A stretch of DNA of 64,000 bases, taken from positions 15,164,803 through 15,228,802 of the forward strand of contig OX243821.1 in NCBI GenBank assembly GCA_945859605.1, in the 5' to 3' direction. The translations under genes were made by a program, and so were the position numbers. Under the pieces are notes generated by a model, which did not search any database, had not been told where the DNA came from, and saw only the letters and a program-made list of their open reading frames with translations. The stretch is from Lumbricus rubellus (Eukaryota; Annelida; Clitellata; Crassiclitellata; Lumbricidae). Shown here one piece after another: positions 4,913 through 62,768 of this stretch; within the stretch, counting starts at the first letter, position 1, and every line of letters begins with the position of its first letter.

Positions 4913-4948
<36 letters not shown>

Positions 4949-4965: not shown

Positions 4966-5172
4966 GGCGCCCCTTGAAGATTAGGCCTGCTACTCAGAAT
5001 TAAGCCTTCTCAACTACAGAGCGGACACTGAATCAGAGTTTCCCGACGATTGCAAGTGAAGGACTTGCCCAAGGTCACTACGCAGCGGCTTGAGGTGGAT
5101 TCGAAGTTTCGAACCTGCAAACCACCGGCAGTAGGCCTAAGGCAACGAACACTGCACCACAGCGACCCACCA
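4960..5172 (-). mobile_element. tRNA-derived SINE (family A), diverged copy
   Basis: On the minus strand this reads as a tRNA-like head (B-box GGTTCGAAACTTCGAATCC, partly duplicated), the family's 'gaccttgggcaagtccttcact' body and the 3' module ending in 'cttcaaggggcgcc'. It directly abuts the LINE microsatellite tail. It is more diverged than the copies at 7012 and 10256. Confidence 0.65.
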
Positions 5173-5378
5173 GTAAGTAAGTAAGAAATAGATCGCTCTG
5201 ATTATGTTATACATTTTTCTGCAGGCCTTAACTCCCATATTATATTTTGACTATTGACACCAACGACCTCATATATATTACAATATTTTTACTGTGCTAT
5301 TATGACGTCATCATTCTCTATCCTCAAATTTATAATCTGCGGAGACTCGTGCGAGTCCAGTTATTGACCGCTGCAAAT

Positions 5379-6816: not shown

Positions 6817-6855
<39 letters not shown>

Positions 6856-31940: not shown

Positions 31941-31946
31941 GACGCC
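31941..31946. repeat. Target site duplication of the Polinton, left
   Basis: GACGCC, repeated exactly at 40801-40806. Six bases is the Maverick/Polinton length. Confidence 0.92.
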
Positions 31947-32305
31947 AGTAGTAGAGGAGATCATTTTATAAACCACTCAAAACAACAATTAAGCTAATTG
32001 AAAGTGACAGCTCTGTAAAGGTCCTTTTCCAAACCACGTCAAAACAAAATGATTAACTACTTCTTTGATCTATATAGGAAACAGCCTGGTCTAGGAAAAT
32101 GCTGACTAATCACTTCTTTGATGTATATAGGAAACAGCCTGGTCTAGGAAATAATGCAATAGCAATTATTGTTTTGATTTACATATGATTAATTACTTCT
32201 TTGATGTCACTGGTCCAGGAAAAGAGACTGGTTTAGGAAATAATGCTGATGCTACATTTCCTTTGATGATGAATAACACTCTTATGGCACGCAAACCAAC
32301 ATTCC

Positions 32306-32392
<87 letters not shown>

Positions 32393-32531
32393 GTGTCTGT
32401 CTGTCTGTGTGTCTGTGTGACCTCTTTGTATACTGCAGATGTGTACAATAAATTATTATTCCTTCACAAGGCATTGCGACCCCTAGCTCCCCATAGGCAA
32501 CGCCAGCACTCTTGGACACTGTGCAATAAAT
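31947..32531. repeat. Polinton left terminal inverted repeat (~585 bp)
   Basis: It matches the complement of 40228-40800. It has three iterated segments of about 55-80 bp containing 'acttctttgat..a' and 'cctggtctaggaaa' (from 32047, 32105 and 32187), then a (CTGT)n run at 32308-32410 and a unique 120-bp inner end stopping at 'gtgcaataaat'. The differences seen from the right copy are repeat number plus about two substitutions near 32458 and 32480. Confidence 0.92.
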
Positions 32532-32625
32532 GAAAATATGGCGGCAACATGCTGCATCAATATAAAAGTCTCTATTCATTACATGGCATTTCATTATTAA
32601 TTTTATATTCTAAAGAACGGTTGAC

Positions 32626-32946
32626 ATGTGTCCGACTATTAGTAAATGTGAAATGGACGTGTGTGGAAACTACAAATGTGACTGCTGTATGTGCCAAAGT
32701 GAAGATGAGGAAAGCGTTGAAAGTGAGAACGAAAAACATGTAAAGTATAATACCTTGAAACTGAAATTTGACAACGAAAATCTAAAGAAGTCTGTCATTT
32801 GTAAAGTCTGTAAAGAAAGACAAGTACAAATACTATCTCTTCCATGTGCACATATAAATATGTGTGAGCCTTGTGCAGACATTGCAACACACTGCCCCTC
32901 TTGCTGCGAGCGCATCCTTGGAACTGTTAGAATATACATGGCATAA
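32626..32946 (+). CDS. IAP-type RING finger protein of the Polinton
   Basis: A 106-aa protein whose C-terminal half is a C3HC4 RING: C59-x2-C62, C74-x-H76, C80-x2-C83, C90-x2-C93, ending GTVRIYMA. The spacing and the GTVR-type C-terminal tail are typical of inhibitor-of-apoptosis (IAP) RINGs, which act as ubiquitin E3 ligases. No BIR domain is present. The N-terminus (residues 1-25) is Cys-rich (CDCCMC) and followed by an acidic stretch. It is the first gene after the left TIR, 38 bp before the ATPase. A role in manipulating host ubiquitin or apoptosis is inference only. The ATG at 32626 was chosen because the frame upstream runs into the TIR boundary; Met11 is an alternative. Confidence 0.85.
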   Translation: MCPTISKCEMDVCGNYKCDCCMCQSEDEESVESENEKHVKYNTLKLKFDNENLKKSVICKVCKERQVQILSLPCAHINMCEPCADIATHCPSCCERILGTVRIYMA

Positions 32947-32984
32947 AAAGGAGAGAACACGACAAAAGACGTTTACTATTCATT

Positions 32985-33599
32985 ATGGATGCAACTTGGA
33001 TACATCCATTCTCTGCTATAATCAGCGGCCCCAGCGGTTGTGGAAAGACGAAATTCACTTTACGTTTTATAGATCATTTAGAATACATGGTCAAGCCTGG
33101 TATAGAAAAAATTATATGGTGTTATGGCATTTACCAAGAAATTTTCGACAAATACACACAAGTTCAATTTCACGAAGGATTGCCCGACTTGAATATTTTC
33201 GATGGAAAGCAAAAGACTCTACTTGTGCTAGACGACCTTATGAGCGAAACTGACCAGAGGGTTACAAACTTATTCACCAAAATTAGTCATCACATGAACG
33301 TTTCTATACTCTACCTGACGCAAAATCTTTTCTACAGTGGCAAGCATACAAGAACCATCAGCCTGAATGCCCACTACTTTGTTCTTTTCAAAAATGTTAG
33401 AGACAGCACGCAGGTTGCAATATTAGCACGACAGATGTTTCCAGGCAAAGCCAATTTTATGATAGAAGCATTCCACGATGCAACAATGGCACCTTTCGGC
33501 TATCTTTTGATCGATCTGAAACCAGAAACTGACGAACGTTGCCGCCTGAGAACAAATATTTTTCCGGGCGAGGTGCATTACGTATATATGAGGAAATGA
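32985..33599 (+). CDS. Genome-packaging ATPase (FtsK/HerA type)
   Basis: A 204-aa P-loop ATPase: Walker A GPSGCGKT at residues 15-22, Walker B LLVLDD at 79-84, and a sensor-like ILYLTQNLF segment after it (about residues 108-116). In Polintons and related viruses of the PRD1-adenovirus lineage this family drives DNA into the preformed capsid. Size and position beside capsid genes fit. The frame is intact. The next gene starts 41 bp later. Confidence 0.9.
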   Translation: MDATWIHPFSAIISGPSGCGKTKFTLRFIDHLEYMVKPGIEKIIWCYGIYQEIFDKYTQVQFHEGLPDLNIFDGKQKTLLVLDDLMSETDQRVTNLFTKISHHMNVSILYLTQNLFYSGKHTRTISLNAHYFVLFKNVRDSTQVAILARQMFPGKANFMIEAFHDATMAPFGYLLIDLKPETDERCRLRTNIFPGEVHYVYMRK

Positions 33600-33640
33600 A
33601 TATAAAGTCCTCACAGACTCTCATCTCTCATTCACTCAAA

Positions 33641-33970
33641 ATGTCTGCAACCATAGAGGAGAAATTTGAGAAACTCAGACTGCTTAAAGAGTCTTCGCCT
33701 AAAGTAAGGAAACAGATTTTGAAAGACTGTAATTCTTCTCTGCTTTGCTGTCTTTGCGAGTGTGCACTCAACATTTTAAAAGGCACGGTGCCTTTGAAAG
33801 AGAGTCAGAAGAAAAGACTCGCTCGATTCAAACACAAGTTGAGAAAACTTGCATCGAAAAAGATTCGAAGAAAAATCAAAAAGCGTATAGTACAGACTGG
33901 TGGCTTCATAGGTGCATTACTGACTCCTGTGCTTTCTTTTCTGGGCACATTGCTAAGCAATAAAATATAG
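33641..33970 (+). CDS. Small basic protein with C-terminal hydrophobic/amphipathic segment
   Basis: A 109-aa protein. Residues 1-45 are mixed and contain a Cys cluster (CCLCEC). Residues 55-85 are strongly basic (KKRLARFKHKLRKLASKK). Residues 87-108 form a Gly- and Leu-rich hydrophobic tail (GGFIGALLTPVLSFLGTLL). Similar basic-plus-hydrophobic proteins occur in other animal Polintons; by analogy with adenovirus pVI this could be a membrane-active or core protein, but I cannot assign it. It ends 1 bp before the next ATG. Confidence 0.7.
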   Translation: MSATIEEKFEKLRLLKESSPKVRKQILKDCNSSLLCCLCECALNILKGTVPLKESQKKRLARFKHKLRKLASKKIRRKIKKRIVQTGGFIGALLTPVLSFLGTLLSNKI

Positions 33971-33971
33971 T

Positions 33972-34628
33972 ATGGAACACACAAAGAAGATGGTTTTGGT
34001 GGAACCTAGACAGATAGAAAAATGGAAAGAGACTATGCTAGACAAAACATTGTCTAAATTGGATACACAGATGTACGACATTCTGCATAGGAATATTCCA
34101 GACGATGATAAAGCCAAACTGTACACCAACAGCTTGAGTCGATACTTACACATTGACAAGCCCAGCATAGTTACCAAGTTCGATTCCAAAGAAGGTGCAG
34201 TGGAAGCGGCGGAAGCGGGCGACCCCAACAAATCTAGCAGCAGCAGCAGCAGTATAGAGACGCAAGTCTTGGAAACGGTACCAAAGAAATGGAAAACTCA
34301 AGCTGCTAGACTCTTGTCGCACATGAAGAGCAATCCCGACGTGTCTTGGACTTCTAAAGGTGAACTTATTTTGAAGGATGCAACTATTCCGAAAACTCAC
34401 ATGGTCGATTTGGTCAACGATCTGATGAGGAAACGTACGACGGCTTCTCCACCCACCGGCTGGAGACTCTTGGCAGAAGCTCTGAAAGACTCAAACATAC
34501 CTCGCGAGTTGATAGGAAATCAAGAACGTTGGATGTATATTAATAGCCCCATCGAAGAATCCTCAACACTTACTCCAAAGAACATTCGTGGAAAACAACA
34601 AAGTCTGTCGAGTTGGATAACTTACTGA
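33972..34628 (+). CDS. Polinton protein of unknown function (218 aa)
   Basis: N-terminal about 75 residues are helical-looking (VEPRQIEKWK..LSKLDTQMYDIL). A Ser-run linker follows at about 89-95, then a C-terminal conserved-looking region: KKWKTQAARLLSHMKSNPD, SWTSKGELILKDATIP, MVDLVNDLMRKR, PPTGWRLLAEALKDSNIPRELIGN. The latter pattern is familiar to me from Polinton-type loci in other invertebrates, where it sits next to the integrase, but no function is known to me. The start codon overlaps nothing: it follows the previous stop by 1 bp. Confidence 0.7.
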   Translation: MEHTKKMVLVEPRQIEKWKETMLDKTLSKLDTQMYDILHRNIPDDDKAKLYTNSLSRYLHIDKPSIVTKFDSKEGAVEAAEAGDPNKSSSSSSSIETQVLETVPKKWKTQAARLLSHMKSNPDVSWTSKGELILKDATIPKTHMVDLVNDLMRKRTTASPPTGWRLLAEALKDSNIPRELIGNQERWMYINSPIEESSTLTPKNIRGKQQSLSSWITY

Positions 34629-34642
34629 TTTTTTGAATATCG

Positions 34643-35677
34643 ATGGAGTCGTACTTTGATCCAAAGACACCTGGCAGCTTTGCAGGCGTGTCATCCTTTC
34701 AGAGACATGCTAATGGACAATTTAAAGAAAAAGATGTTAAAAATTGGCTGACCAAACAAGATGCATACACGTTACATAAACCTGTTAGATTGAACTTTAG
34801 GCGACGAAAGACTTTCTCTGTTGGTATTTGCGATCTTTGGCAGGCCGATCTGGCCGATCTTTCAGCATTGTCGAAATATAATGATAAAAATAAATATATT
34901 TTAACCTGTATAGATGTATTTTCTAAATATGCTTGGGTGGTGCCCCTTAAATCAAAGTCCGGTGTGGATCTGACTGAGGCATTTTCCATCATTCTTACCG
35001 ACAAACAGCCAGCCAATCTGCAAACTGACAAGGGAACAGAGTTCCTTAATAAAAACTTTCAAAATATGCTACGCAAAAATGCCATTCGCTTTTACACATC
35101 TGAAAATAGCGACATAAAGGCCTCTATAGTTGAGCGTTTCAATAGAACTCTCAAGTCCAAGATGTGGAAATACTTTACTTATAAGAATACTTATAGGTAC
35201 ATAGACATTTTGCAAGACCTCGTACATTCGTACAACCACACGCACCATAGAAGCATAGGCATGGCCCCCATTGAGGTTTCTAAGGAAAATGAAAATAGTA
35301 TTATCAAACGTTTGTATGGTGAAAAGAAACACCCGCCCGATTGGAAATATGAAGTGAACGACAAGGTCAGAATAGTAAAGGCTAGGATGGCTTTTCAAAA
35401 AGGATATTTACCAACATGGTCGACTGAAATTTTTAAAATTATAAGGCGTGTGCCTACCGATCCAGTAACGTACGAACTCGAAGATTTGGCTGGTGAACAG
35501 ATAAAGGGAAAATTCTACGAATTTGAGTTGCAGAGAATTTTAAAGGATGACGATGTTTACACGGTTGATAAAATTCTGAAAAGCCGTAAGCGGCGCGGTA
35601 AGACTGAATACTTTGTAAAGTGGAAAGGCTATGACACTAAATTCAACTCTTGGACACACGATATATTCAGCCTTTAG
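34643..35677 (+). CDS. Retroviral-type integrase with C-terminal chromodomain
   Basis: A 344-aa DDE integrase. Catalytic residues by position are D69 (WQADLADL), D129 (QTDKGTEF) and E164 (VERFNRTL), with 34 residues between D129 and E164, one fewer than the usual 35. A C-terminal chromodomain covers about residues 299-342 (YTVDKILKSR...EYFVKWKGYD...SWTHDIF), which may direct integration to marked chromatin. This is the Polinton c-integrase; it would make the 6-bp duplication seen. No HHCC zinc domain is obvious at the N-terminus. The frame is intact. Confidence 0.93.
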   Translation: MESYFDPKTPGSFAGVSSFQRHANGQFKEKDVKNWLTKQDAYTLHKPVRLNFRRRKTFSVGICDLWQADLADLSALSKYNDKNKYILTCIDVFSKYAWVVPLKSKSGVDLTEAFSIILTDKQPANLQTDKGTEFLNKNFQNMLRKNAIRFYTSENSDIKASIVERFNRTLKSKMWKYFTYKNTYRYIDILQDLVHSYNHTHHRSIGMAPIEVSKENENSIIKRLYGEKKHPPDWKYEVNDKVRIVKARMAFQKGYLPTWSTEIFKIIRRVPTDPVTYELEDLAGEQIKGKFYEFELQRILKDDDVYTVDKILKSRKRRGKTEYFVKWKGYDTKFNSWTHDIFSL

Positions 35678-35726
35678 CTTCACATTCTTGCAGTCTGTCA
35701 GAGCACGCATGCAAGTAGTAACGACA

Positions 35727-36587
35727 ATGGCGCACTTCTATCTAACTTTACCAAGCAATTCTTCCATGTCCCATTTCCCCAGCAATACAACTGCGCACTT
35801 TACAACGAAATTGGAAAATGACATTTCCCTTTCTGGTCGATGGGAAGCTGCTTTGATAGAGCTGCAATACCCACACACGTGGTACAATGTGCAAAGTGGA
35901 CAGGGCGACTTTATGTATAACCATATTCCTAAAAGAACAAATCCCAAAGATGAGTGGTATTCTATACAAGAATTGTGTCATATTCCTGCTGGCTATTACG
36001 AAAGCCTGGAGGATATAGTTCATGCGGTGAACTCGAAAATAGAGTCTGCGACCAAATTGCATTCGCTCGTCCGTCACCCAAAATTTAAATACGATAAAGT
36101 AACCAAAAGACTCACAGGTAAAATAAATCTCGCTACAAGTATTGGATTCTCTTCACATCTGTGCGATATTTTTGGTATAGGAGAAAATCAGAAAGTTATC
36201 GAAAATTTCGATTACGGCCACTATGTACACGAAAGTCGATACGAAGATTATGTCAAAGCGTGGGACGAGATGCCCGACAAGGAATGGATTTCTGATATGA
36301 CCTGCAATATAAATCCAGCATTTTCACACGTGTACGTGTATTGTAACATTTTGGAATCTGTAGCGCTTGGCGATGCGAAAGCGCCTTTGCTACGCGTAGT
36401 TAATATAGACGGCAAAAGCGGGGACACCATGCATGTTATATACAGAAATGCAATATATGTACCGATTCAACAAAAGACTTTCGGCGCTATAGAAATATAT
36501 ATGAGAGGTGACAATGGCAAGTCCATACCATTCGAGCATGGGAAGTCGTTCGTTATACTTCATTTCAGACAGTGTAGCAACATATAA
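35727..36587 (+). CDS. Minor capsid (penton-like) protein candidate, paralogue A
   Basis: A 286-aa protein starting MAHFYLTLPSNSSM, the same start as the next gene, which is why ATG 35727 is preferred over upstream ATGs. Conserved blocks shared by the two paralogues are LSG.WE.AL.E.QYPHTW, LPAGYYE/IPAGYYE, KFKYD..TKRL.G, SLYIYCN-like, and GDAKAPLLRVVN..GKSGD. Predicted to be largely beta-strand. In Polintons a single-jelly-roll minor capsid protein normally accompanies the major capsid gene; that assignment here is inference from position and composition. Confidence 0.65.
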   Translation: MAHFYLTLPSNSSMSHFPSNTTAHFTTKLENDISLSGRWEAALIELQYPHTWYNVQSGQGDFMYNHIPKRTNPKDEWYSIQELCHIPAGYYESLEDIVHAVNSKIESATKLHSLVRHPKFKYDKVTKRLTGKINLATSIGFSSHLCDIFGIGENQKVIENFDYGHYVHESRYEDYVKAWDEMPDKEWISDMTCNINPAFSHVYVYCNILESVALGDAKAPLLRVVNIDGKSGDTMHVIYRNAIYVPIQQKTFGAIEIYMRGDNGKSIPFEHGKSFVILHFRQCSNI

Positions 36588-36589
36588 AA

Positions 36590-37414
36590 ATGGCCCATTT
36601 CTATCTCACCTTACCAAGCAACAGTTCTATGCAATTCTATCCCCAAAATACGATAACAAATTTTATCACAAGATTGGAGAATTCCATTTCTCTAAGTGGT
36701 GACTGGGAAGTCGCTTTATTGGAAATTCAATATCCTCATACGTGGACCAATTTAGATAGAAACGACAGTAGAATATCGTATACACATGAAGTGTTTTCGG
36801 AAAATGGCGACATACTACCAGGGACCATGCATAGAACGACCCGTTTGCCTGCTGGATATTACGAAACTGCACAAAATCTTATCGATTCTATAAACAAATT
36901 TATATTTCAAGTTGCGGACGAGTTGGACATTGCAGAATTTCCAAAGTTTAGCTACGATCCTGTAACGAAGCGACTCAACGGTGATATGAACAGGGGTGCG
37001 AGCGTACAGTTTTCGCCCGTCATATGTTCAATGTTGGGTGTTGCTGCGCGTCAGAATCCAATTCTCAAGTACGATGAAGACGAGGATTACGTTTTTGAAT
37101 TCATGGGCTCTAATGCGTGTGATGTAAATCGTGGATTTTCGTCTCTGTATATTTATTGTAACGTTCTCGAGCAAGTGCCAGTGGGCGACACGAAGGCTCC
37201 CTTGCTGAGGATCGTAAACGTTAGTGGAAAAAGCGGCGACAGCGTGCGTACGAATTACGAAAAGCCCATCTACGTACCGCTACAGCAGAAGAATTTCGAC
37301 TCTATCGAGATAGATATAAGGACCGACACTGGCTCGCCTGTGCCATTCGAAAGCGGAAAGTGCATACTAACACTACACTTCCGGCATTGCAAGATACCTT
37401 ACCTTTTACAATGA
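36590..37414 (+). CDS. Minor capsid (penton-like) protein candidate, paralogue B
   Basis: A 274-aa tandem paralogue of the preceding gene, with the same N-terminus and the blocks SLSGDWEVALLEIQYPHTW, LPAGYYET, KFSYDPVTKRLNGD, YIYCNVLEQVPVGDTKAPLLRIVN and VPLQQKNFDSIEI. It begins 2 bp after gene A stops and its own TGA overlaps the next ATG (ATGA). Divergence between A and B is large (under half identical by eye), so the duplication is old. Confidence 0.65.
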   Translation: MAHFYLTLPSNSSMQFYPQNTITNFITRLENSISLSGDWEVALLEIQYPHTWTNLDRNDSRISYTHEVFSENGDILPGTMHRTTRLPAGYYETAQNLIDSINKFIFQVADELDIAEFPKFSYDPVTKRLNGDMNRGASVQFSPVICSMLGVAARQNPILKYDEDEDYVFEFMGSNACDVNRGFSSLYIYCNVLEQVPVGDTKAPLLRIVNVSGKSGDSVRTNYEKPIYVPLQQKNFDSIEIDIRTDTGSPVPFESGKCILTLHFRHCKIPYLLQ

Positions 37415-37815
37415 AGAAACCATATTGCTGTGATGCTAGCCGATCGGCGTACGAAGACTATTATATGCAACAGAGTGGCAATGGTATGTCTGTATTTCAA
37501 GGCGCTCGTCTTCAGCGCGGTCACGGCTTGGGTAGTTTTCTTGGTGGACTCTTTAGAAATGCGTGGCCGCTTATACAGACTGGTGCTAAAGCGCTTGGCA
37601 AACAGGTACTGAGAACGGGACTCCAGATTGCCAACGATGTCGCCGACGGCGGACAGTTCGTAGACGCGGCCAAGCGTCGCGTCCCAGAAGGTATAAAGGC
37701 GTTTACAAGTTCAAACGATTTTAATACGCAGAGTGGCAGCGGGCGAAAAAGACGTAAGAGATTGCTGAGAAGAAATAAGAAAAGAATCAAGGAAGACATA
37801 TTTGGAACAGTTTAA
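37411..37815 (+). CDS. Adenovirus pX/pVI-like small basic protein candidate
   Basis: A 134-aa protein. Gly-rich HGLGSFLGGLFRNAWPLIQTGAKALGKQVLRTG (cited here as blocks GLGSFLGGLFR, PLIQTGAKALGK and VLRTGLQIANDV) is an amphipathic segment at about residues 37-72, and the C-terminus is very basic (SGRKRRKRLLRRNKKR). The LGGLFR...GAKALGK pattern resembles the minor core/cement proteins of Polintons and adenoviruses. It sits immediately before the major capsid gene, starting in a 4-nt overlap with the penton-like gene. Confidence 0.65.
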   Translation: MKKPYCCDASRSAYEDYYMQQSGNGMSVFQGARLQRGHGLGSFLGGLFRNAWPLIQTGAKALGKQVLRTGLQIANDVADGGQFVDAAKRRVPEGIKAFTSSNDFNTQSGSGRKRRKRLLRRNKKRIKEDIFGTV

Positions 37816-37816
37816 A

Positions 37817-39139
37817 ATGGCATTCGTTCATCCTCAGTCTTGCGAGTGTGCAAAGAGCGAACTGGACCTGTTTAGCGTGCCTGCTACGCAGACAAGCATA
37901 GAAGCCGGCTCGTACGTGGAATATAATCCAATAGCAACCATTTCACAGGGTACACCTATAGAATTTAGCATTACTGGCACCGGACAAGACTATCTAGATC
38001 TGTCAAACACTCAACTGTACGTCAGAGCCTCTATTGTGCGAGCGAATAATGATGCTACAGATGCTGGCGATCACGTTGGTCCTGTCAACCTTTTCATGCA
38101 CAGTCTATTTTCTGAGGTAGACATCACTTTAAACGATACATTGGTCACAGCGTCAAACAACACGTATGCGTACCGCAGCTACTTGGAAACTCTACTAAGT
38201 TATGGCAGTTCAAGCAAAAATTCTCAACTCACCTCTGCATTATTTTACAAGGACACTGCCAGACGCTTTGAGGAAGCTAATCCGCACGACGATGCTGGTG
38301 AAAACATTGGATTCAAGAAGCGCAGTGCTCTGGCCGACGAAGGACGTGTGGTCGATATGTTGGGCGGTATTCACAGCGATCTCTTCTTTCAGGAACGCTT
38401 CTTGCCAAACGACATTAATATAAAAATTCGCTTCGTGCGTAATAAGGATGCATTCTGTCTTATGTCTTCGGCTGTGGGGCCCACATACAAAGTAAAAATA
38501 TTAGAGTGCAAATTGTATGTAAGAAAAGTTAGACTAAGTCCCTCTGTCTTCCTTGCTCATGCTAAAGCATTGGAGATTGGAAATCTGAAATTTCCCATTC
38601 GCAGAGTTGTTTGCAAGACTTTTACGGTTCCTAGAGGAAATTTGGACGTGACACAAGAAAGCCTCTTCTCTGGACAACTTCCGACGCGCATCGTGTTTGG
38701 ATGCATTGACAACGACGCATTCAATGGCACCTACACCAAAAGCCCATACAATTTCAAACACATGAACTTGTCTCAATTAAAAGTATATCTGGACGGTCAG
38801 CAGCAAAGTATAAAACCCCTGGAAACTAACTTTGCAACTGGCCAGTTTGTGAATGCCTATGCCTCGCTCTTCATGGGCACTGGTAAATGGCAGAGAAACG
38901 ACGATAACGACATCTCCAGAGAAGATTATGCGAATGGATATTGTTTGTATGCATTCGATTTAACTCCTGACTTGGCAGAGGGCGACCACTTCAATTTAGT
39001 CAAATCGGGAAATGTGCGGGTGGATATGAAGTTCTCTCAGGCGTTGGAAGCTACAATAAATGTCATAGCATTTGCAGAATTTGAAAATATTCTCGAGATT
39101 GACAGATCACGCAACGTAATATTCGACTACAACAATTAG
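37817..39139 (+). CDS. Major capsid protein (double-jelly-roll type)
   Basis: A 440-aa protein with blocks typical of Polinton/adintovirus hexon-like proteins: LDLSNTQLYVRASI, VGPVNLFMHSLFSEVDITLND, SNNTYAYRSYLETLLSYG, a long middle with beta-strand spacing, and C-terminal YCLYAFDLTPDL...NVRVDMKFSQAL...VIAFAEFENILEID. It resembles the proteins often named F54H12.2-like in invertebrate annotations. It would form the icosahedral shell. ATG 37817 follows the previous TAA by 1 bp; an in-frame ATG at 37802 would overlap the upstream gene. Confidence 0.85.
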   Translation: MAFVHPQSCECAKSELDLFSVPATQTSIEAGSYVEYNPIATISQGTPIEFSITGTGQDYLDLSNTQLYVRASIVRANNDATDAGDHVGPVNLFMHSLFSEVDITLNDTLVTASNNTYAYRSYLETLLSYGSSSKNSQLTSALFYKDTARRFEEANPHDDAGENIGFKKRSALADEGRVVDMLGGIHSDLFFQERFLPNDINIKIRFVRNKDAFCLMSSAVGPTYKVKILECKLYVRKVRLSPSVFLAHAKALEIGNLKFPIRRVVCKTFTVPRGNLDVTQESLFSGQLPTRIVFGCIDNDAFNGTYTKSPYNFKHMNLSQLKVYLDGQQQSIKPLETNFATGQFVNAYASLFMGTGKWQRNDDNDISREDYANGYCLYAFDLTPDLAEGDHFNLVKSGNVRVDMKFSQALEATINVIAFAEFENILEIDRSRNVIFDYNN

Positions 39140-39145
39140 AGAAAG

Positions 39146-39598
39146 ATGGATGGCATTACGATAGAAAATATTCTACGAAGAGATCCCAGATGTGCGACCA
39201 TGTTCGTGGGAGTCTTTGCATGCAATCGTCTACCCAAGTGGATTAATACAAATAGACCCGCTATATTCGTATGCAATACAGACACGTACGGTCGGCCTGG
39301 TATCCACTGGGTGGTGTTATATATCGAAAGCCCAAATTATGGAGAGTTCTTCGACTCATTGGGGAATCCACCAGACGCGCCTTTCAGAACATTTCTACAC
39401 AAGCATTGTACTCGTTGGATTTACACAAATAATCAAATTCAGAGTTTAATAAGTAGATTTTGTGGGCATTATTGTATTTTTTATGCATTACATCGAAGTA
39501 GAGGACTTAATATAAATGCAGTTTGCAACAATTTTACAAGAGACACTGGATTAAACGACTTTTTAGTTCATAGGTTTTTGCATGATATTAATAAATAA
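39146..39598 (+). CDS. Adenain-like cysteine protease
   Basis: A 150-aa C5/Ulp1-fold protease. The catalytic set is in order: H54 (GIHWV), D70 (EFFDSLG), Q99 and C106 (QSLISRFCGHYC). The Q is seven residues before the Cys, as in adenovirus protease. This enzyme matures capsid proteins in the adenovirus/Polinton lineage. It starts 6 bp after the capsid gene and is the last gene; the element's right gap follows. Confidence 0.92.
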   Translation: MDGITIENILRRDPRCATMFVGVFACNRLPKWINTNRPAIFVCNTDTYGRPGIHWVVLYIESPNYGEFFDSLGNPPDAPFRTFLHKHCTRWIYTNNQIQSLISRFCGHYCIFYALHRSRGLNINAVCNNFTRDTGLNDFLVHRFLHDINK

Positions 39599-39694
39599 TG
39601 TTGATTCAATTTAAAAGCCTTGTGTTCTTTACAACGTGCGTGAATGAATTTGCTGCAATGATTTAAAAGGCGAGGCTAAGAATGCGAATAAGAG

Positions 39695-39916
39695 TATTTG
39701 GAAGGTGTGGGAGAAGAGAGTGGGGAAAGGAGGGTGTGAAGGAAGAGGGGGAAAGGAGGGTGTGAAGGAAGAGAGTGGGGAAAGGAGGGTGTGAAGGAAG
39801 AGAGTCGGAAGGAGGGTGTGAAGGAAGAGAGTCGAAAGGCGGGTGTGATGGAAGAGAGTCGAAAGGAGGGTGTGAAGGAAGAGGGGAAAAGGAGGGTGTG
39901 GAGGAAGAGAGGTAAG
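39695..39916. repeat. ~26-bp minisatellite inside the Polinton
   Basis: About eight units of 'gaaaggagggtgtgaaggaagagagtc', purine-rich on the + strand, between the protease gene and the right TIR. Units vary by a few bases. Confidence 0.8.
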
Positions 39917-40227
39917 AATGTATAATACATGAATAAGAATGGATAATACTTTGTTGTGACATTTATTCGTGCGTGCAATGCGTATGTGGTAATGTCCAAG
40001 CGAATTGAGGTGCATATAGACAGATGTATGCGATAAAAGGGTGTGTGATGAGACAAGCGTCTTTGCATTAAAGGTCTATAGATCATTCGAACGGTGCGCG
40101 CCGCATAAGACCGTTATGTTTGATCATTCGTGGTGCTTCTTTGAGACATGCCACATGCTATATCGGTTCACGTGTGCATCAACAATTAAAGGTTGAATAC
40201 ACTCAAAGGCCGTCTCTGATAATAATA

Positions 40228-40366
40228 ATTTATTGCACAGTGTCCAAGAGTGCTGGCGTTGCCTATGGGGAGCTAGGGGGCGCAATGCCTTGTGAAGGTA
40301 TAATAATTTATTGTACACATCTGCAGTATACAAAGAGGTCACACAGACACACAGACAGACAGACAC

Positions 40367-40441
<75 letters not shown>

Positions 40442-40800
40442 GGAATGTTGGTTTGCGTGCCATAAGAGTGTTATTCATCATCAAAGGAAATGTAGCATCA
40501 GCATTATTTCCTAAACCAGTCTCTTTTCCTGGACCAGTGACATCAAAGAAGTAATTAATCATATGTAAATCAAAACAATAATTGCTATTGCATTATTTCC
40601 TAGACCAGGCTGTTTCCTATATACATCAAAGAAGTGATTAGTCAGCATTTTCCTAGACCAGGCTGTTTCCTATATAGATCAAAGAAGTAATTAATCATTT
40701 TGTTTTGACGTGGTTTGGAAAAGGACCTTTACAGAGCTGTCACTTTCAATTAGCTTAATTGTTGTTTTGAGTGGTTTATAAAATGATCTCCTCTACTACT
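40228..40800. repeat. Polinton right terminal inverted repeat (~573 bp)
   Basis: Reverse complement of 31947-32531, with a slightly shorter (ACAG)n run (40338-40441). The three iterated segments are preserved in mirror order. Confidence 0.92.
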
Positions 40801-40806
40801 GACGCC
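40801..40806. repeat. Target site duplication of the Polinton, right
   Basis: GACGCC, identical to 31941-31946. Confidence 0.92.
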
Positions 40807-51538: not shown

Positions 51539-51728
51539 AAGAGAGGTCGTGGTCGATGAAAAGTCAGCGTAGCGCTATATGTAGAGCAATTATCTTTTGT
51601 ATGTTCATCTGATGAATGTCGTGTATCGCCTGAGGATGCAGTTGTCTTTCCACATCAATTCGCTCTCGACATCAGCAATGTCTGTTTACCAGACATTGAT
51701 TGCATGCTACTGCAACAAATAACGCTGA

Positions 51729-52545
51729 TGTATGTATGTATGTATGATTGTATGCATGTATGTATGTATGTATGTATGTATGTATGTATGTATGTATGTA
51801 TGTATGTATGTATGTATGTATGTATGATTGTATGTATGTATGTATGTATGTATGTATGTATGTATGTATGTATGTATGTATGTATGTATGTATGTATGTA
51901 TGTATGTATGTATGTATGTATGTATGTATGTATGTATGTATGTATGTATGTATGTATGTATGTATGTATGTATGTATGTATGTATGTATGTATGTATGTA
52001 TGTATGTATGTATGTATGTATGTATGTATGTATGTATGTATGTATGTATGTATGTATGTATGTATGTATGTATGTATGTATGTATGTATGTATGTATGTA
52101 TGTATGTATGTATGTATGTATGTATGTATGTACGTACGTACGTACGTACGTACGTATGTATTGTATGTATGCATGTATGTATGTATGTATGTATGTATGT
52201 ATGTATGTATGTATGTATGTATGTATGTATGTATGTATGTATGTATGTATGTATGTATGTATGTATGTATGTATGTATGTATGTATGTATGTATGTATGT
52301 ATGTATGTATGTATGTATGTATGTATGTATGTATGTATGTATGTATGTATGTATGTATGTATGTATGTATGTATGTATGTATGTATGTATGTATGTATGT
52401 ATGTATGTATGTATGTATGTATGTATGTATGTATGTATGTATGTATGTATGTATGTATGGGTCTACGTATAATTATATGCTTGTTTATGTATGTATGTAT
52501 GTAAGTATGTATGTATGTATGTATGTATGTATGTATGTATGTTTA
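51729..52545. repeat. (TATG)n microsatellite, ~815 bp
   Basis: Nearly pure TATG with a short (TACG)n block at 52129-52155 and few other interruptions. Frames in all registers are open for over 250 codons because the 4-bp unit gives a 4-residue peptide repeat; these are not genes. Confidence 0.95.
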
Positions 52546-56285: not shown

Positions 56286-57401
56286 TGTCACGAGTTGCCC
56301 TTGTAAATAGTATTGGGCCCATTGTTGTAGACCTATGCATTATATACCTATATTGTGTTATGTCGTATATAATAGTATTATGTGCTTAAATGACAGTTTG
56401 ACAATAGTATATAGATATACCTATAATAATCTAGCTTATATAATTATATCGATGGTCGTCGATGGTCGTTGGGTCCAAAAGGTGTGTCGGGGGTAAAGGT
56501 CATCTGTCTGGAAGGCAGATAGGCCTATATAGGCAAGAGAACGGACTGTCTGGGGGTCAGTCGTCGGAGGAGAGTCAGTCGGCGGTCAGTCGTCGGAAGC
56601 TGTCGTCGAGGAGTCATCAGTCGTCGGTCGGAGATGCGAAGTGGGCATGCACGCTGAACTTTGCTGAAGGACGTTCGAGCGTAGGACAACGCACAACGGT
56701 GCAAGAAGGTGAATACTGGGCACAACGGTGCTACCAGGCGAAGTCCGAGCACAACGGTACTACTACCAGACGAGGACGGTCTAGAAGGGGCGGACGCTTT
56801 CCCGCCATTTTCTCCGTCGCTTTCCGCCACTTCGTCGCAACTTCTCTACCACGTGACCACGTCTATGCTAGACGTGGGCGGTGTCTGTGAGAGCGGAATC
56901 TTCTCCGCCACTTCTACGACCGAGGTGGGCGGTGCCGGAAGAAACGGGCACTCCTCTACAAGACGCGACCAGCGGTCGTAGCTGGAACGCCAGCAGGACG
57001 GGAACTCTCGACGCTGGGTTCGAGAACGGACCAACGGACGCCTTCAGAACCAACCAGACCAGTGAGCCGACCGAAGCCCTTCGCTGCGTAACAGGACTTC
57101 TTCACACCTGCAGAAACTGTCTCCATGCGAACGGAAACGTGAGTGGGGGCGAAGTTTTGTTGGGGGGTCTGGGGGAGGGCACGACCATCGATTAGGGCTC
57201 TATAGGCGTAGCCTATAATTAACGAAACTGTTTTTGCTATATATGTAGCTATGTCTTTTAGTTCAATTTCAGTTGTCTTTTTATCTGAATAATTTTCTAA
57301 ACGAGTTCATGCTTTGTTTTCTAGTATTTCGATGACAATATTCTAGACACCCTTTCCTTAATAGGCTAGGGCTAACTCGCCATTTAAGATAACTCATGAC
57401 A
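56286..57401 (+). repeat. 5' LTR
   Basis: TGTCA...TGACA ends; 1,116 bp. 'cttatataattatat' near 56433 could supply a TATA element. GC-rich middle (56560-57180). Apparent open frames inside are identical in both LTRs and show no protein features. Confidence 0.95.
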
Positions 57402-57404
57402 ATG

Positions 57405-57422
57405 TGGTGGCAGCGGTGGGAT
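57405..57422 (+). promoter_or_regulatory. Primer binding site, tRNA-Leu
   Basis: TGGTGGCAGCGGTGGGAT, three bases after the LTR, is complementary to the 3' end of common animal tRNA-Leu (…CCGCTGCCA plus CCA). Confidence 0.8.
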
Positions 57423-57762
57423 GGTTGAGTTTGTTTAGGATATGGTCGTTGTATTAGGAACATAAGCTATATTTGACTCGATAGAATTATACGGGGATTT
57501 AGACACTGATTAAACAATATAGCTAAACGCATTGAAGCATTGCTAAAGATAATTTATGCTATTATAGCGTAGGTGTTTCACGCTGCATAAATAGGCCAGT
57601 GGGATTGTTTAAAGATCTGTTGTAGACTTAGTTAAACATACTTCTTCTATAGTGTCGCCTATAGTGAGGTCTAAGGTAATTATCTAGACTGAATAGACTA
57701 GCATTTGTCGCTTAGGGGATATTCTGTTTCAGTTTAGCCCAGCCGGCTAATTATATTGCAAC

Positions 57763-58695
57763 ATGGAGCAATTGATAGCTCTTGCCGAAAGGAGTGGCTT
57801 GAAAGGGCCTGAGCTTCTTGAGTTTGTGGAAAAGCACAGAGCTGACGAAGAAGCGCGACAGAAACGGATTCTTGAGCGAGAAGAGAGAGCAGCTGACAGA
57901 GAGATGCGTAAGTTTGAATTGGAGCATCAGGCTAAAGTGGAAGCAGAACAAAACGCACTCAAGAAGTTTGAGATGGAGCAACAGGCTAAAGCTGTAGCCG
58001 AAGAAAACGCACTCAAGAAGTTTGAATTGGAGAAACAGGCAAAAGCTGAATCCTTAGACTTGGAAAGACAGGCTAAAGCTGAAGCCGAAGCCAATGCAAT
58101 GAGGAAGTTAGATTTGGAGAGACAAGTAAAAGCAGAAGCCGATGAATCTGCAATGAGAAAATTGGAACTTGAAAGAAAGATGAAACAGGAGGCGCACGAG
58201 CAAGCATTGGAAATGCAAAAGGAGCAACATGAACAGTCCATGGCTTTGGAGAAAGCTAAGCTCGAAGGAAAGACTGTACGGCAGGCTAGTATCAGAAGTG
58301 TTAGTGAAAACGCAGCATCTGAAGAGGATGGTGAAGAGGAGGAGGAAGAGGAGCGGACCTCGGATTTTACAGTCAATGCGAGGAAAGGACCAAAGCTGCC
58401 TCCATTTGAGGATGGCAAAGATAATATGGACGCTTATCTGAGAAGATTTGAGAAATATGCGTCTATTCGAAAATGGAAAAGGCAGGAATGGGCAGTTTAT
58501 TTGGCCGCACTTTTGAAAGGACGCGCTTTAGATGTGTTTGCGCGTATGCCGCCTGAACAATACGACGATTACGACGCATTGAAAGATGCTCTTCTGAAAA
58601 GATATCAGATGACGGAAGAAGGCTTTCACAAGCGGTTTAATAACTGTAGACCGGAAACTGGAGAAGCGCCTCAACAATTCATCACCAGGTTATAA
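57763..58695 (+). CDS. gag: Gag, N-terminal part, ended by an in-frame TAA
   Basis: A 310-codon frame from ATG 57763. Residues about 25-170 are a highly charged coiled coil built from ~24-residue repeats (KFELEHQAKVEAEQNAL, KKFEMEQQAKAVAEENA, and so on). An acidic run (EEDGEEEEEEER) follows, then the gag core: LPPFEDGKDNMDAYLRRFEKYA, WAVYLAALLKGRALDVF, YDALKDALLKRY, APQQFITRL. The TAA at 58693-58695 falls in the middle of this retroviral-type gag domain; the same frame continues directly (SYLMRWIELAKV). It is therefore either a recent disabling mutation or a suppressed stop. The unusual position, not at the gag/pol border, favours mutation. Confidence 0.85.
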   Translation: MEQLIALAERSGLKGPELLEFVEKHRADEEARQKRILEREERAADREMRKFELEHQAKVEAEQNALKKFEMEQQAKAVAEENALKKFELEKQAKAESLDLERQAKAEAEANAMRKLDLERQVKAEADESAMRKLELERKMKQEAHEQALEMQKEQHEQSMALEKAKLEGKTVRQASIRSVSENAASEEDGEEEEEEERTSDFTVNARKGPKLPPFEDGKDNMDAYLRRFEKYASIRKWKRQEWAVYLAALLKGRALDVFARMPPEQYDDYDALKDALLKRYQMTEEGFHKRFNNCRPETGEAPQQFITRL

Positions 58696-58701
58696 AGCTA
58701 C

Positions 58702-61700
58702 TTGATGAGATGGATTGAGCTCGCCAAAGTCACTCAAGACTTTGATGGATTGAAGAGTTTGCTGGTAAAGGAGCAGTATCTCTCGGTAGTGAGCAAAGAA
58801 TTGTCGCTGTTCTTGAGAGAAAGGGCGCCAAAAGACCTTCAAGAACTCGCTAAATTAGCGGAGACCTACATAGAGGCACACGAAGGAAAGTCAAAACAGT
58901 CATACCAGTCGGACTACGGAGAGAAAGAAATAAGAACAGAGGGAAAATTTCTCAAGCCAGACTTCACGAAGGAAAATGAGAGGGCTGGAAAGAAAGACCA
59001 AAAACGTAATGGGGCTACTGATAGGCCTTGTTTTTTTTGTAACCGATACGGGCACTCCTATAATTCATGTCGGTTTAGAATGAATACGTCACATAAAGCA
59101 GCAGGAATGCAGACTTCCTGGAAGCCTAGAAATGCATGGCAGAACCAGAAGAAAAAAGCTGAGAACAAGAAAGATAAATCAGCATCTTCCGCAGTTGATA
59201 AGAAAACGCACCAAACGACCGCAACTTCAACCGATCCAGAAGGAACGCTGGTCAAGGAAGGGTGTGACGAAAATGCTGGTCAGGCGTTGAAAAATCTGTC
59301 CGATGGTGAAGATGGCGAACTAAGATGTGGTTGCAAAGCGCACGTCATAGCTGAAGCCTGTAGACCGGGTAAATACGGAACTGATATGAAGACAACGATT
59401 GGTTATGTAGGAGATCAACAGGTCGAAGTGCTTCGAGACACCGGATGTTCGTCAGTGGTTGTAGCCAGGAGGCTGGTGAAAAAGAATCAGATGACTGGGA
59501 AGCATGAGTTGTGCATTCTGATTGACAAAACTACGAGGAAAGTGCCAACCGCTATCATTGAAGTCAGAACGGACTACTTCACAGGGAAAGTGAAAGCGCT
59601 CTGCATGAAGGAAACATTATACGATCTTGTAATTGGAAATATATCTGGAGCGGAACTACGGCCCAGATCCTTCGACAAGAGTACTGAGGTACATGAACAA
59701 GACTTGTTGATTGACGCAGAGAAAGATGCGGGGTGTACTGAAGAGCAGTTGAATGTGACATCAGCTGTGGAAACCCGACATATGAAAGAGAAAGCGAGAG
59801 CATTGCCAAAGCAATTACGAGTTCCAGACTTTCAGAATGAAGTCACATTGGAAACGTTAAAGAAGGAACAAGCTGAAGACAGTTCATTGAAGAAATACTG
59901 GGAGTATTCTACACAGAAAGAAGCGACTGGAACGAACGATGACGATCGCATCGTACGCTTTGATGTGGAACGAGGACTGCTGTACCGCAAGTTTCAATCA
60001 CCACATCATAACTTCGGCGATGAAGTGAAACAGCTGGTAATTCCATCCAGGTTGAGAACCAGAGTAATGGAAATAGCCCATAGCTCAATTCTTGGAGGAC
60101 ACTTGGGCATTCACAAAACTCAAGAGAGAATTCTATCTCAATTCTTTTGGCCAGGATGCTACAGTGATATCGGAAGATACTGTCGATCCTGCGATATTTG
60201 TCAAAGAACCTTGCCGAAGGGGCGAGTTCAGAAAGTGCCTTTGATCAAGATGCCGATAATTGACACGGTCTTTAAGAGATGCGTGGTCGACCTCATTGGA
60301 CCACTTCCATGCTCAGAGCGAGGACACCGGTACATTCTAACATTAGTGGATTGTGCAAGCCGCTATCCGGAGTGTATCGCGCTTAAGCAAATTGACACCT
60401 GTTCTGTTGCAGAAGCATTGCTTAGCATCTTTTCAAGGATGGGGGCGCCATTGGAACTGCTCTCGGATAATGGATCACAGTTCACAGGAGCAATGATGAA
60501 GGAAGTAGGTCGACTTCTGTCGATAAAACAATTATTCAGCACTCCATATCACAGTCAAAACTGTGGATTGGTTGAAAGATATAACGGAGTCATCAAACAA
60601 ATGCTTCGGAAAATGTGTGCAGAGAAAGTGAAAGATTGGGATCGATACTTAGATCCTTTGATGTTCGCATATCGTGAGGTCAGTAATGAAAGTACGGGAT
60701 TCAGTCCATTTGAGATGATTTACGGAAGACCTGTGCGAGGATCCATGGCGATCTTGAAAGAACTGTGGACTAAAGACATTGCTGAACCAGAGGAGAAGAC
60801 GACTTATGAGTATGTTGTCGATCTGAGGAATCGTCTTCAAGAGACTTGTCATTTAGCGCAAGAAAATCTGCAGAGAGCCGCTGATAAATATAAACGTAAT
60901 TTTGACAAGCATGCCAAGCCTCGAAAGTTTGATCCAGGCGATAAAGTACTGCTACTGTTGCCTACAGAGAGCAACAAACTGCAAATGCAATGGAAAGGTC
61001 CATTTCAAGTACTGAAACGATTCGGAGAAGCTGATTATGTAATCCAGTTTCCTCACCGAGCAAAGACGTTCCATGCGAACATGCTGAAACGCTATTATGA
61101 GCGTCAACCAGAGACAGAGAACAGACCGAGCGAGGAAGCCGTGAACGACGAACTGCAAGCTGTAGGAGCAGCTGTTGTCGTCGAAGAATTGTCTGATGCA
61201 GAGATGAGAATGACAGGTGAAGGAAATCTGCCACTCTTTAACAATCTGCAGAAAGAGACCTACAAAGATGTGGAGATAGGCCACGATCTGTCAGAGGATC
61301 AGAAGAAGGAGGTCGAAAACCTCTTGGAAGAATTCCAAGACATCTTCAGTGATGTGCCAGGAAGAACCAACCTAGTCAGACATCGGATCCAGCTGACGTC
61401 GAATGTCCCAGTGCGGAAGAGGCCATATCCTGTGCCTTATGCAATGAGACAAGAATTGGACAAAGAAATCGACGATATGATCAGGTTGGGAGTAATTGAG
61501 CCTTCAACATCAGCATACGCCTCTCCTATGTTGCTAGTAAAAAAGTCAGACGGATCCAATAGGCCTTGTGTGGACTTCCGGGACTTGAACCGGATCACGG
61601 AATTTGATGCGGAACCGATGCCGCAGGCCGATGAGATTTTTGCCAAGTTAGCAGGCAACAAGTTCTTCTCAAAGTTTGATCTTTCAAAGGGCTACTGGGG

Positions 61701-62661
61701 AATCGAAGTCGAACCAGAATCCAGGGACTGCACGTCGTTTATAACGCACCGTGGACTCTATCGGTTTGTTACTATGCCATTCGGATTAGTAACGGCTCCT
61801 TCGACCTTCTCAAGAGCCATGCGGAAGCTCTTGGATCGTAGTCAGAATCTGGATAACTATCTTGATGATGTGCTATGCCATACTATTGGATGGCCAGATC
61901 ATCTGAGCTCTCTGCGGGACTTCTTTGTAAGAATACGCAGGGCCGGTCTAACACTTAGACCATCCAAATGTCAAATTGGAGAACAAGGCATCGACTTCTT
62001 AGGACATAAGATAACTGATGGAATGATTCAGCCAAGAGCGGAGAAAATTGGAAAGATCGCAGAAGCTTCACGGCCAGAAACCAAGAAACAGGTTCGCTCT
62101 TATCTCGGTTTAGTGGGCTATTACCAAAAGTTCATACCGAACTTTTCAAGCATCGCCGCTCCGCTAACTGATCTGACGAGGAAGAATCAGCCGAACAAAG
62201 TCATTTGGGGTGACGCGCAAGAATTAGCTTTCCAAGAGCTAAAGCAGCATCTGATGAATTATCCAATTCTCAGATTGCCGGACTGGAGCGCAGAGTTCAT
62301 TTTGCAGACGGACGCTTCGAATTATGGCGCAGGCGCAGTTCTTCTACAGGAAGTAGATGGCGTTAAGCATCCTATTGCCTACGCCAGTAGAAAATTTCTA
62401 CCAAGAGAGACCCGATACTCAACGATTGAAAGAGAAGGACTAGCAATAGTATGGGCGCTACAAAAATTCCAGGTGTACTTGTTTGGAAAACACTTCTGGT
62501 TAGAGACGGATCATCAGCCTCTGATCCATATTCAAAGAGCCAATCCAGTCAATGGAAGACTAATGCGCTGGGCTTTAATTTTGCAGCCGTATTCCTTTAC
62601 CATACGCTCAATTAAAGGGTCTGAAAATGTGGGGGCCGATTTTTTAAGCCGCCATCTGTAG
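58702..62661 (+). CDS. pol: Gag C-terminus and Pol: zinc knuckle, protease, integrase, RT, RNase H
   Basis: 1,319 codons in the same frame as gag. Residue positions counted from 58702: rest of the gag core (1-60); CCHC knuckle C110-x2-C113-x4-H118-x4-C123; aspartic protease DTG at about 246 (LRDTGCSSVVV); integrase HHCC (HLGIH...CRSCDIC, about 465-500), then D (VVDLIGPL), D (LSDNGSQF) and E (GLVERYNG), about 530, 588 and 624; RT about 890-1150 with NRPCVDFRDLN, FDLSKGYWGIEV, MPFGLVTAPSTF and the catalytic YLDD; RNase H with LQTDASNYGAGAVL, STIEREGLAIVWAL, LETDHQPL; end DFLSRHL. All catalytic motifs are intact. The listed start is only the first Met after the TAA; translation would normally come from gag. 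Confidence 0.95.
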   Translation: MMRWIELAKVTQDFDGLKSLLVKEQYLSVVSKELSLFLRERAPKDLQELAKLAETYIEAHEGKSKQSYQSDYGEKEIRTEGKFLKPDFTKENERAGKKDQKRNGATDRPCFFCNRYGHSYNSCRFRMNTSHKAAGMQTSWKPRNAWQNQKKKAENKKDKSASSAVDKKTHQTTATSTDPEGTLVKEGCDENAGQALKNLSDGEDGELRCGCKAHVIAEACRPGKYGTDMKTTIGYVGDQQVEVLRDTGCSSVVVARRLVKKNQMTGKHELCILIDKTTRKVPTAIIEVRTDYFTGKVKALCMKETLYDLVIGNISGAELRPRSFDKSTEVHEQDLLIDAEKDAGCTEEQLNVTSAVETRHMKEKARALPKQLRVPDFQNEVTLETLKKEQAEDSSLKKYWEYSTQKEATGTNDDDRIVRFDVERGLLYRKFQSPHHNFGDEVKQLVIPSRLRTRVMEIAHSSILGGHLGIHKTQERILSQFFWPGCYSDIGRYCRSCDICQRTLPKGRVQKVPLIKMPIIDTVFKRCVVDLIGPLPCSERGHRYILTLVDCASRYPECIALKQIDTCSVAEALLSIFSRMGAPLELLSDNGSQFTGAMMKEVGRLLSIKQLFSTPYHSQNCGLVERYNGVIKQMLRKMCAEKVKDWDRYLDPLMFAYREVSNESTGFSPFEMIYGRPVRGSMAILKELWTKDIAEPEEKTTYEYVVDLRNRLQETCHLAQENLQRAADKYKRNFDKHAKPRKFDPGDKVLLLLPTESNKLQMQWKGPFQVLKRFGEADYVIQFPHRAKTFHANMLKRYYERQPETENRPSEEAVNDELQAVGAAVVVEELSDAEMRMTGEGNLPLFNNLQKETYKDVEIGHDLSEDQKKEVENLLEEFQDIFSDVPGRTNLVRHRIQLTSNVPVRKRPYPVPYAMRQELDKEIDDMIRLGVIEPSTSAYASPMLLVKKSDGSNRPCVDFRDLNRITEFDAEPMPQADEIFAKLAGNKFFSKFDLSKGYWGIEVEPESRDCTSFITHRGLYRFVTMPFGLVTAPSTFSRAMRKLLDRSQNLDNYLDDVLCHTIGWPDHLSSLRDFFVRIRRAGLTLRPSKCQIGEQGIDFLGHKITDGMIQPRAEKIGKIAEASRPETKKQVRSYLGLVGYYQKFIPNFSSIAAPLTDLTRKNQPNKVIWGDAQELAFQELKQHLMNYPILRLPDWSAEFILQTDASNYGAGAVLLQEVDGVKHPIAYASRKFLPRETRYSTIEREGLAIVWALQKFQVYLFGKHFWLETDHQPLIHIQRANPVNGRLMRWALILQPYSFTIRSIKGSENVGADFLSRHL

Positions 62662-62754
62662 GCCTAAATAGGAACTAGGATAAGTAAACCTAGATATTAA
62701 CAGGGCAATCGTTTTAGTTTTAGTTGTAAAGAAAAGCTAAGTTAGTTTTCTCTT

Positions 62755-62766
62755 AAGTGGGGGGCC
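62755..62766 (+). promoter_or_regulatory. Polypurine tract before 3' LTR
   Basis: 'aagtggggggcca' immediately upstream of the 3' LTR; expected plus-strand primer site. Confidence 0.7.
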
Positions 62767-62768
62767 AT

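Follow-up and report, generated by a model that had tools for sequence, protein, structure and literature searches.

Polintons, also called Mavericks, are by published definition elements that all encode both a protein-primed DNA polymerase B (PolB) and an integrase (PMC4642659), and intact vertebrate Mavericks measure 12.7–24.6 kb (PMC8097293). In a 64-kb stretch of the genome of the annelid Lumbricus rubellus (contig OX243821.1; "the window" below means this whole stretch), positions 31947–40800 are an inserted element of 8,854 bp with AG/CT ends. It shares with Polintons the 6-bp target-site duplication (TSD), the AG/CT ends, long terminal inverted repeats (TIRs), a retrovirus-type (rve) integrase, an A32-type packaging ATPase, a C5-type protease and, judging from a low-confidence model, a double jelly-roll capsid protein. 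It differs from them in that its family measures only 8.6–8.9 kb and has no PolB in the same element. Below, the window element and its relatives (subfamilies A and B) are termed C elements, for capsid and integrase, and the PolB-bearing elements of the same genome P elements. The window element is probably the capsid/integrase half of a split (bipartite) Polinton, with P as the polymerase half, the two being separately inserted and likely complementing each other. By definition, neither half, as read, qualifies alone as a Polinton; each works like part of one.

Several described systems come close to this arrangement. Adintoviruses and 'meldviruses' are animal relatives of Polintons, and proteins of adintoviruses and adomaviruses are among the fold matches of the C capsid model. 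Some reported genomes encode adenovirus-class virion proteins and neither PolB nor integrase (PMC11071296); C elements differ from these in keeping their integrase, with the PolB residing in a second element. Polinton-like viruses (PLVs) and Tlr1 resemble C elements in having a capsid module without a standard PolB, and Tlr1 has an rve integrase and capsid genes and, in its older annotation, no DNA polymerase (PMC4642659). Many PLVs carry helicase/primase-type replication proteins or a PolB–helicase fusion (PMC11071308, PMC4642659), whereas no such replication protein was recognised in the C element. PLVs have also been proposed to use the integrases of resident Polintons in trans (PMC4642659). 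The C/P case is the mirror image of that proposal. Ginger DNA transposons are likewise integrase-type DNA elements related to Polintons and, to our knowledge, have no capsid module. Bidnaviruses are single-stranded DNA viruses with parvovirus-type capsids, and we know of no integrase in them. Their likeness to the present case lies in a segmented DNA genome and a Polinton-type PolB (PMC11071296). In the literature searched, with most subscription papers outside reach, no Polinton split into capsid/integrase and polymerase elements was found.

Copies and coding constraint of the capsid/integrase elements

The window element is flanked on both sides by an exact 6-bp TSD, GACGCC (31941–31946 and 40801–40806), adjoining the TIR ends. 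The left TIR (31947–32531, forward strand, 585 bp) begins with AGTAGTAG and holds a CTGT microsatellite; the right TIR (40228–40800, reverse strand, 573 bp) finishes with CTACTACT. Aligned with each other, they agree at 570 positions and differ by 3 mismatches and a 12-bp indel where the CTGT microsatellite begins. The interior between the TIRs is filled by ten forward genes, all of them open. A first-pass annotation of the window had described the exact duplication, the AG/CT ends, the long TIRs and ten unbroken genes, and these were confirmed at 31947–40800, as was its claim that no PolB lies between the TIRs. Indeed, tblastn with a PolB from the same genome left both the whole window and 24 stretches of related copies (L009–L032) without a match at E ≤ 1. 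Thus, the protein-primed PolB of Polintons is absent from the window element and from L009–L032, and the usual Polinton size of about 15–20 kb is not reached (8.76–8.86 kb in 14 A copies and 8.6–8.7 kb in three B copies). The rve integrase, the 6-bp TSD, TIRs beginning with AG, the ATPase, the protease and the capsid protein (the last by low-confidence model) are all present.

The two CTGT arrays within the window TIRs (32305–32424 and 40340–40446) are 12 bp apart in size, and TIR lengths are unequal within other A copies as well. Either the arrays and TIR lengths changed after insertion or they were copied inexactly.

For the family search, the left 1,954 bp of the element was compared with the 787-Mb genome, and 40 of 270 candidates were scored. 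In 15 of these 40 places, the match begins at or close to the left end: at position 1 in 14 of them, with ≥95% identity in 13 and 89% in one, and at position 141 (92%) in the other. One further place begins at position 801, and 24 begin at positions 606–613 with 90–93% identity. Besides the window, 20 places were read, including five of the 24 listed B-type places (L024–L028) and leaving aside the other 19. Fourteen copies (L009–L022) are colinear with the window element at 94–99% identity and make up, together with it, the 15 copies of subfamily A, while L023 is a partial copy whose ends were left out of the end analysis. The main block of L022 (8,114 bp) matches positions 1–7893 only, this copy being without part of its right side; the other 14 A copies, window included, measure 8,757–8,855 bp. 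An exact 6-bp TSD, each at its own locus, was found by script in 14 of the 15 A copies, and that of L021 (GACAAT) appears once the left end is shifted 5 bp outward by eye. By strict count, six of the 15 (the window copy, L009, L010, L011, L017 and L020) have every one of the ten genes open; L015 is open throughout too when read by open frames. Mismatch between the two TIRs of a copy is 0–2.6%, with none in L011, which suggests that the A copies inserted recently. The search thus recovered a family with the same TIRs and gene order, in which all copies read are without PolB. Because 14 other copies are colinear with it, the window element shows no sign of an internal assembly join.

The B copies (L024–L028) have the ten genes of A in unchanged order, with truncated or broken frames in two of them: Pa, the first of two paralogues described below, reaches 94% of its length in L025, and the 218-residue protein 54% in L026. 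Their termini differ from those of A, running from AGTAGTG to CACTACT, with about 44 bp alike between the two ends by eye. In the four B copies whose right ends were examined (L025–L028), an exact 6-bp TSD was present in three (L025, 8,619 bp; L027, 8,712 bp; L028, 8,709 bp), and the end of L026 was sought and not located. The ratio of nonsynonymous to synonymous substitutions (dN/dS) between A and B, calculated for the window copy against L024, L025, L027 and L028, was 0.02–0.27 in all ten genes, with synonymous divergence (dS) of 0.15–0.85 over the four pairs. Since dN/dS is low in every gene, these substitution patterns show all ten genes to be under purifying selection and both subfamilies to have been kept as working ten-gene units without a linked PolB. 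The first-pass annotation had argued for recent mobility rather than decay, and the 15 A copies, their TSDs, the small TIR mismatch and the constrained genes bear this out.

Two other origins of the window element were considered and rejected. That it is a single deletion derivative of a longer element is countered by the two subfamilies, the multiple copies and the ten constrained genes, and longer colinear copies bearing PolB were absent among the copies read. An assembly join is countered by colinear copies at separate loci, the TSDs, the second subfamily and the constrained genes.

Polymerase elements and a shared terminal stretch

PolB genes are abundant in the same genome. A search with the PF03175 profile gave 1,619 candidates, of which 91 were scored; 89 places lay above the curated cut-off, and 86 had no internal stops, mostly with frames of about 1,100–1,200 codons. 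At no point do a listed C place (40) and a listed PolB place (89) come within 30 kb of each other; the closest pair is 43 kb apart. This is only suggestive of C and PolB places being unlinked, as judged from the scored parts of both lists.

Ten of the PolB loci were examined together with adjacent sequence, and one of them (L040), with 5 kb read on each side of PolB, could be followed end to end. This P element (C17:3003311-3012278) is 8,968 bp long, begins with AGTAGGGTG and finishes with CACCCTACT, i.e., it has AGTAG/CTACT ends. The TSD CGCATG stands on both sides of it, and its TIRs are 264 bp long and 98.9% identical. It holds a PolB exon of about 1,110 codons and an upstream open stretch; because this stretch stops at a GT donor, the PolB is probably spliced. 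When the ten C proteins were compared by tblastn with L040, L043 and L044, none was found (best E value 0.13), and the same procedure recovered all ten genes in L028 as a control. Complementary core genes are therefore carried by separate elements, C copies being without PolB and P, of which one complete copy was read, without the ten C genes.

In the PolB, motifs of an exonuclease are accompanied by those of a polymerase (DCNNLY, KLMNNSIYGK and DTDS), and its kin suggest that it is protein-primed. Pfam made no call on the whole 1,111-residue protein and reached 2e-25 on pieces of it; a PDB sequence search gave ankyrin and zinc-finger noise only. No stop was present in the single-frame aligned stretch of any of the ten loci, eight of which cover nearly the whole main exon. 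The other two alignments are partial, that of L033 extending up to residue 962 and that of L041 starting from residue 313, and these two genes are probably frame-broken. In eight of nine PolB pairs dN/dS was 0.05–0.12, and the ninth (L037/L038) had no coding difference. L037 and L038 lie on two different chromosomes. Over 4.27 kb their identity is 99.9%, and they diverge right after a CACTACT end; this is a very recent copy event. A CTACT end at the point where close copies part was seen in L037, L038 and L042, and one recognised by motif alone in L036, L039 and L041; with the patterns used, no such end was found in L033–L035. Adjoining the PolB of L034 on the opposite strand (L034:177-683) is a protein with a PC4-like domain (PF02229, 2.2e-21), of which tblastn found no copy in the other stretches of L009–L044. 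Some PolB elements may thus carry a second replication-type gene.

The P element also shares a terminal stretch with C elements. Its positions 285–1260, directly inside the left repeat, match the right end of B elements in four of four pieces with 73–90% identity (best E value 1e-144), in one block for L032 and in three blocks for the other three pieces, while the outermost 0.28 kb of P is unmatched. This stretch is apparently non-coding, being repeat-rich with longest ATG frames of 60–100 codons. In the A element, GGAAGAGG-type repeats and a tail after the last gene (39700–39964, forward strand) show weak similarity to the left terminal region of P; the best block (39819–39964) is 68% identical over 167 columns with an E value of 1.7e-11, and a G-rich tract in non-element DNA resembles the repeat part too. 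The CTGT array with its 96-column flank (40223–40448, forward strand) matches P as well, in the same order from the end, and the flank alone, with the array masked, is 68% identical over 96 columns (E value 3e-04). The parts of A thus follow the order seen in P, with the CTGT array and its flank first and the GGAAGAGG-type repeats and their tail next, at about 68% identity. In 82,690 nt of non-element flanking DNA used as a control, only two overlapping matches of 67–68 nt were obtained, from one G-rich tract; a separate comparison with non-element DNA also gave one match of 27 nt (E value 0.007) in a flank of L017. A dispersed genomic repeat was therefore rejected as the source of the shared module in the non-element DNA examined, except for the G-rich part. 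As far as sequence comparison goes, a terminal stretch common to P and B elements would be as expected if common proteins act on both.

Gene products and surroundings of the window element

All ten genes lie on the forward strand, and the dN/dS values given here refer to the comparison with subfamily B. The first gene (32626–32946) encodes a RING-finger protein of 106 residues (PF13920, 1.2e-07; dN/dS 0.04–0.08). It is followed by the A32-type packaging ATPase (32985–33599, 204 residues; dN/dS 0.06–0.10), whose PF04665 match (5e-05) is barely above the curated cut-off; through its P-loop part, this protein also matches the RNA_helicase family PF00910 (1.9e-04) and a helicase-loader PHROG (0.002). 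A small basic protein of 109 residues (33641–33970) is open in 15 A copies, with dN/dS of 0.09–0.12, and the 218-residue protein (33972–34628; dN/dS 0.09–0.13) had no Pfam family match above the cut-off. The rve integrase (34643–35677, 344 residues; PF00665, 7.4e-11) has a C-terminal chromodomain (PF00385, 1.4e-09) and a dN/dS of 0.14. Among otherwise intact A copies, breaks affect the integrase more often than any other gene. This would be consistent with inactive insertions that still supply capsid proteins, or with chance, the integrase being among the longer genes.

Two paralogues stand in tandem (35727–37414). Pa (35727–36587, 286 residues; dN/dS 0.22–0.27), β-rich in a model with a predicted local distance difference test (pLDDT) value of 91.7, is a candidate minor capsid or penton protein. 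Pb (36590–37414, 274 residues; dN/dS 0.19–0.22) is 46% identical to Pa and is the least conserved gene between the subfamilies, with 74–75% identity to B copies vs. 98–99% for the capsid protein, a divergence that would suit a spike or attachment protein. The next gene (37411–37815) encodes a small protein of 134 residues (dN/dS 0.11–0.18), a candidate virion component for which no family match was obtained when it was tested minus its first codon.

The 440-residue major capsid protein (37817–39139; dN/dS 0.02–0.03) has 2,369 homologues and would adopt the double jelly-roll fold, as judged by comparison of a low-confidence model. When this model was compared with the PDB by Foldseek, the top matches were the Sputnik major capsid protein (E value 1.8e-13) and the PBCV-1 capsid protein (2.4e-12), the model having a pLDDT of 58 and template-modelling scores (TM-scores) of only 0.43–0.51. 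A PDB sequence search with the capsid protein found nothing, and no relative was found when a viral contig collection was scanned with the capsid protein, the capsid alignment and the PolB alignment. In a viral structure library, the top match of the model was a 496-residue protein of the wasp bracovirus of Cotesia sesamiae (37% identity, E value 1.4e-27, TM-score 0.3), possibly a Polinton-derived gene in a domesticated virus. The last gene encodes an adenovirus-type C5 cysteine protease of 150 residues (39146–39598; dN/dS 0.03–0.06), with a PF00770 match (4.8e-05) above the cut-off. Hence the identities proposed by the first-pass annotation for the ATPase, integrase and protease have Pfam support, and that of the capsid protein has the support of the low-confidence model. 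No clear replication protein was recognised among the ten products with Pfam and PHROGs, small uncharacterised proteins remaining among them.

Elsewhere in the window, which contains many long microsatellites, a tandem array of ATGT type and about 0.9 kb (51660–52540) is open in several frames. A Ty3/gypsy-type retrotransposon occupies 56444–63678, with repeats near 56444–57195 and 62927–63678 and two frames of 314 and 1,321 codons that are, by eye, gag-like and protease/integrase/reverse transcriptase-like, respectively. It looks recent because the matching repeats enclose long open frames.

A probable split Polinton and its alternatives

In a split Polinton, C elements would supply the integrase, capsid, protease and packaging ATPase, and P elements the polymerase. 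By protein priming, the PolB from P would replicate C and P DNA alike, starting from the ends; the C integrase would insert both C and P elements, and C capsids would package either; the shared terminal module would be where these common proteins act. In its strictest form, this would be an integrating double-stranded DNA virus, likely of an animal, with a genome in two permanently separate segments, one for capsid and integrase and one for the polymerase, inserted separately and held together only by mutual need and the common terminal module. Such a truly bipartite Polinton is proposed with slightly more doubt than belief.

A number of observations weigh against a split. The module match is strong for B and short and weak for A; the 264-bp repeat of P has no match to the B ends, nor does the right end of P match there; and the tips of P and C agree in AGTAG only. 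Compared with the A element, the ten PolB loci gave only short matches at chance level or in microsatellites, and a single capture event can explain the common module. At least one gene is broken in eight of the 15 A copies, including the integrase in five (L012, L014, L016, L018 and L022). Of the ten PolB loci, one was followed over a whole P element; the remaining nine were read without their left 4–5 kb, and some of them could belong to full Polintons. Finally, among the matches listed and compared by eye, four pairs of capsid and PolB relatives come from contigs of equal size (P0002/P0125, 32,451 bp; P0086/P0129, 32,263 bp; P0062/P0192, 21,071 bp; P0115/P0142, 18,791 bp), and capsid and PolB genes are therefore probably linked in other organisms. 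The first of these pairs, made up of the capsid relative listed second (83%) and the PolB relative listed fourth (64%), is in line with descent from an unsplit common parent. The capsid relatives P0005, P0009 and P0013 (80–82%, 13–17 kb) have no partner among the 120 PolB matches listed.

The first-pass annotation had proposed that the element depends on a replicase supplied in trans, akin to a satellite. In such a scheme, PolB disappeared from the C family long ago, and complete Polintons in the genome, or an infecting adintovirus-like virus, replicate its members in trans; P would be only another derivative. The abundance of PolB, the nine loci not read to both ends, and the public relatives with a capsid gene and PolB apparently on one contig all speak for it, yet no listed C place of the 40 has a listed PolB within 30 kb (scored places only), and a complete PolB element with its own TSD and without the ten genes exists. 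Moreover, a pure satellite of a full virus needs no capsid, ATPase or protease of its own, and all three are constrained here; a satellite is thus unlikely. What stood from the earlier proposal is a real and recently mobile lineage without PolB; in place of a full helper, a separate PolB element without the ten genes (one copy) was found, which shares a terminal stretch with B. The relation between C and P looks like a reciprocal split rather than that of satellite and helper, a full Polinton elsewhere in the genome being possible.

It is improbable that P is a one-way parasite, i.e., a selfish replicon with a captured C terminal module that exploits the C integrase, and perhaps the capsid, and returns nothing, while something else replicates C. 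In its favour, the P copy read yielded no integrase, the module match could reflect capture, and PolB candidates (1,619) outnumber those of the C left end (270), although the two kinds of search differ and the counts are not strictly comparable. Against this, C would still need a replicase, the P-type PolB is the one found (no search for other replicases was made), and mutual dependence is the simpler reading. Mobility by the integrase alone is very improbable: C would be a DNA transposon that, like Ginger, relies on its integrase and on replication by the host and needs no PolB, in keeping with the rve integrase with its chromodomain and the clean 6-bp duplications. It leaves unexplained the strong constraint on the capsid protein, ATPase and protease, as well as the terminal module common to B and PolB elements.

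Polintons are defined by a polymerase and an integrase together, and a split lineage in which both parts are numerous and under selection would depart from this definition. If true, the split would show how an integrating double-stranded DNA virus becomes multipartite while resident in a genome, and it would allow tests of trans-replication, of co-packaging and of how segmented DNA viruses such as bidnaviruses arose. Surveys that demand PolB and a capsid gene in one element will overlook such families or label them as fragments.

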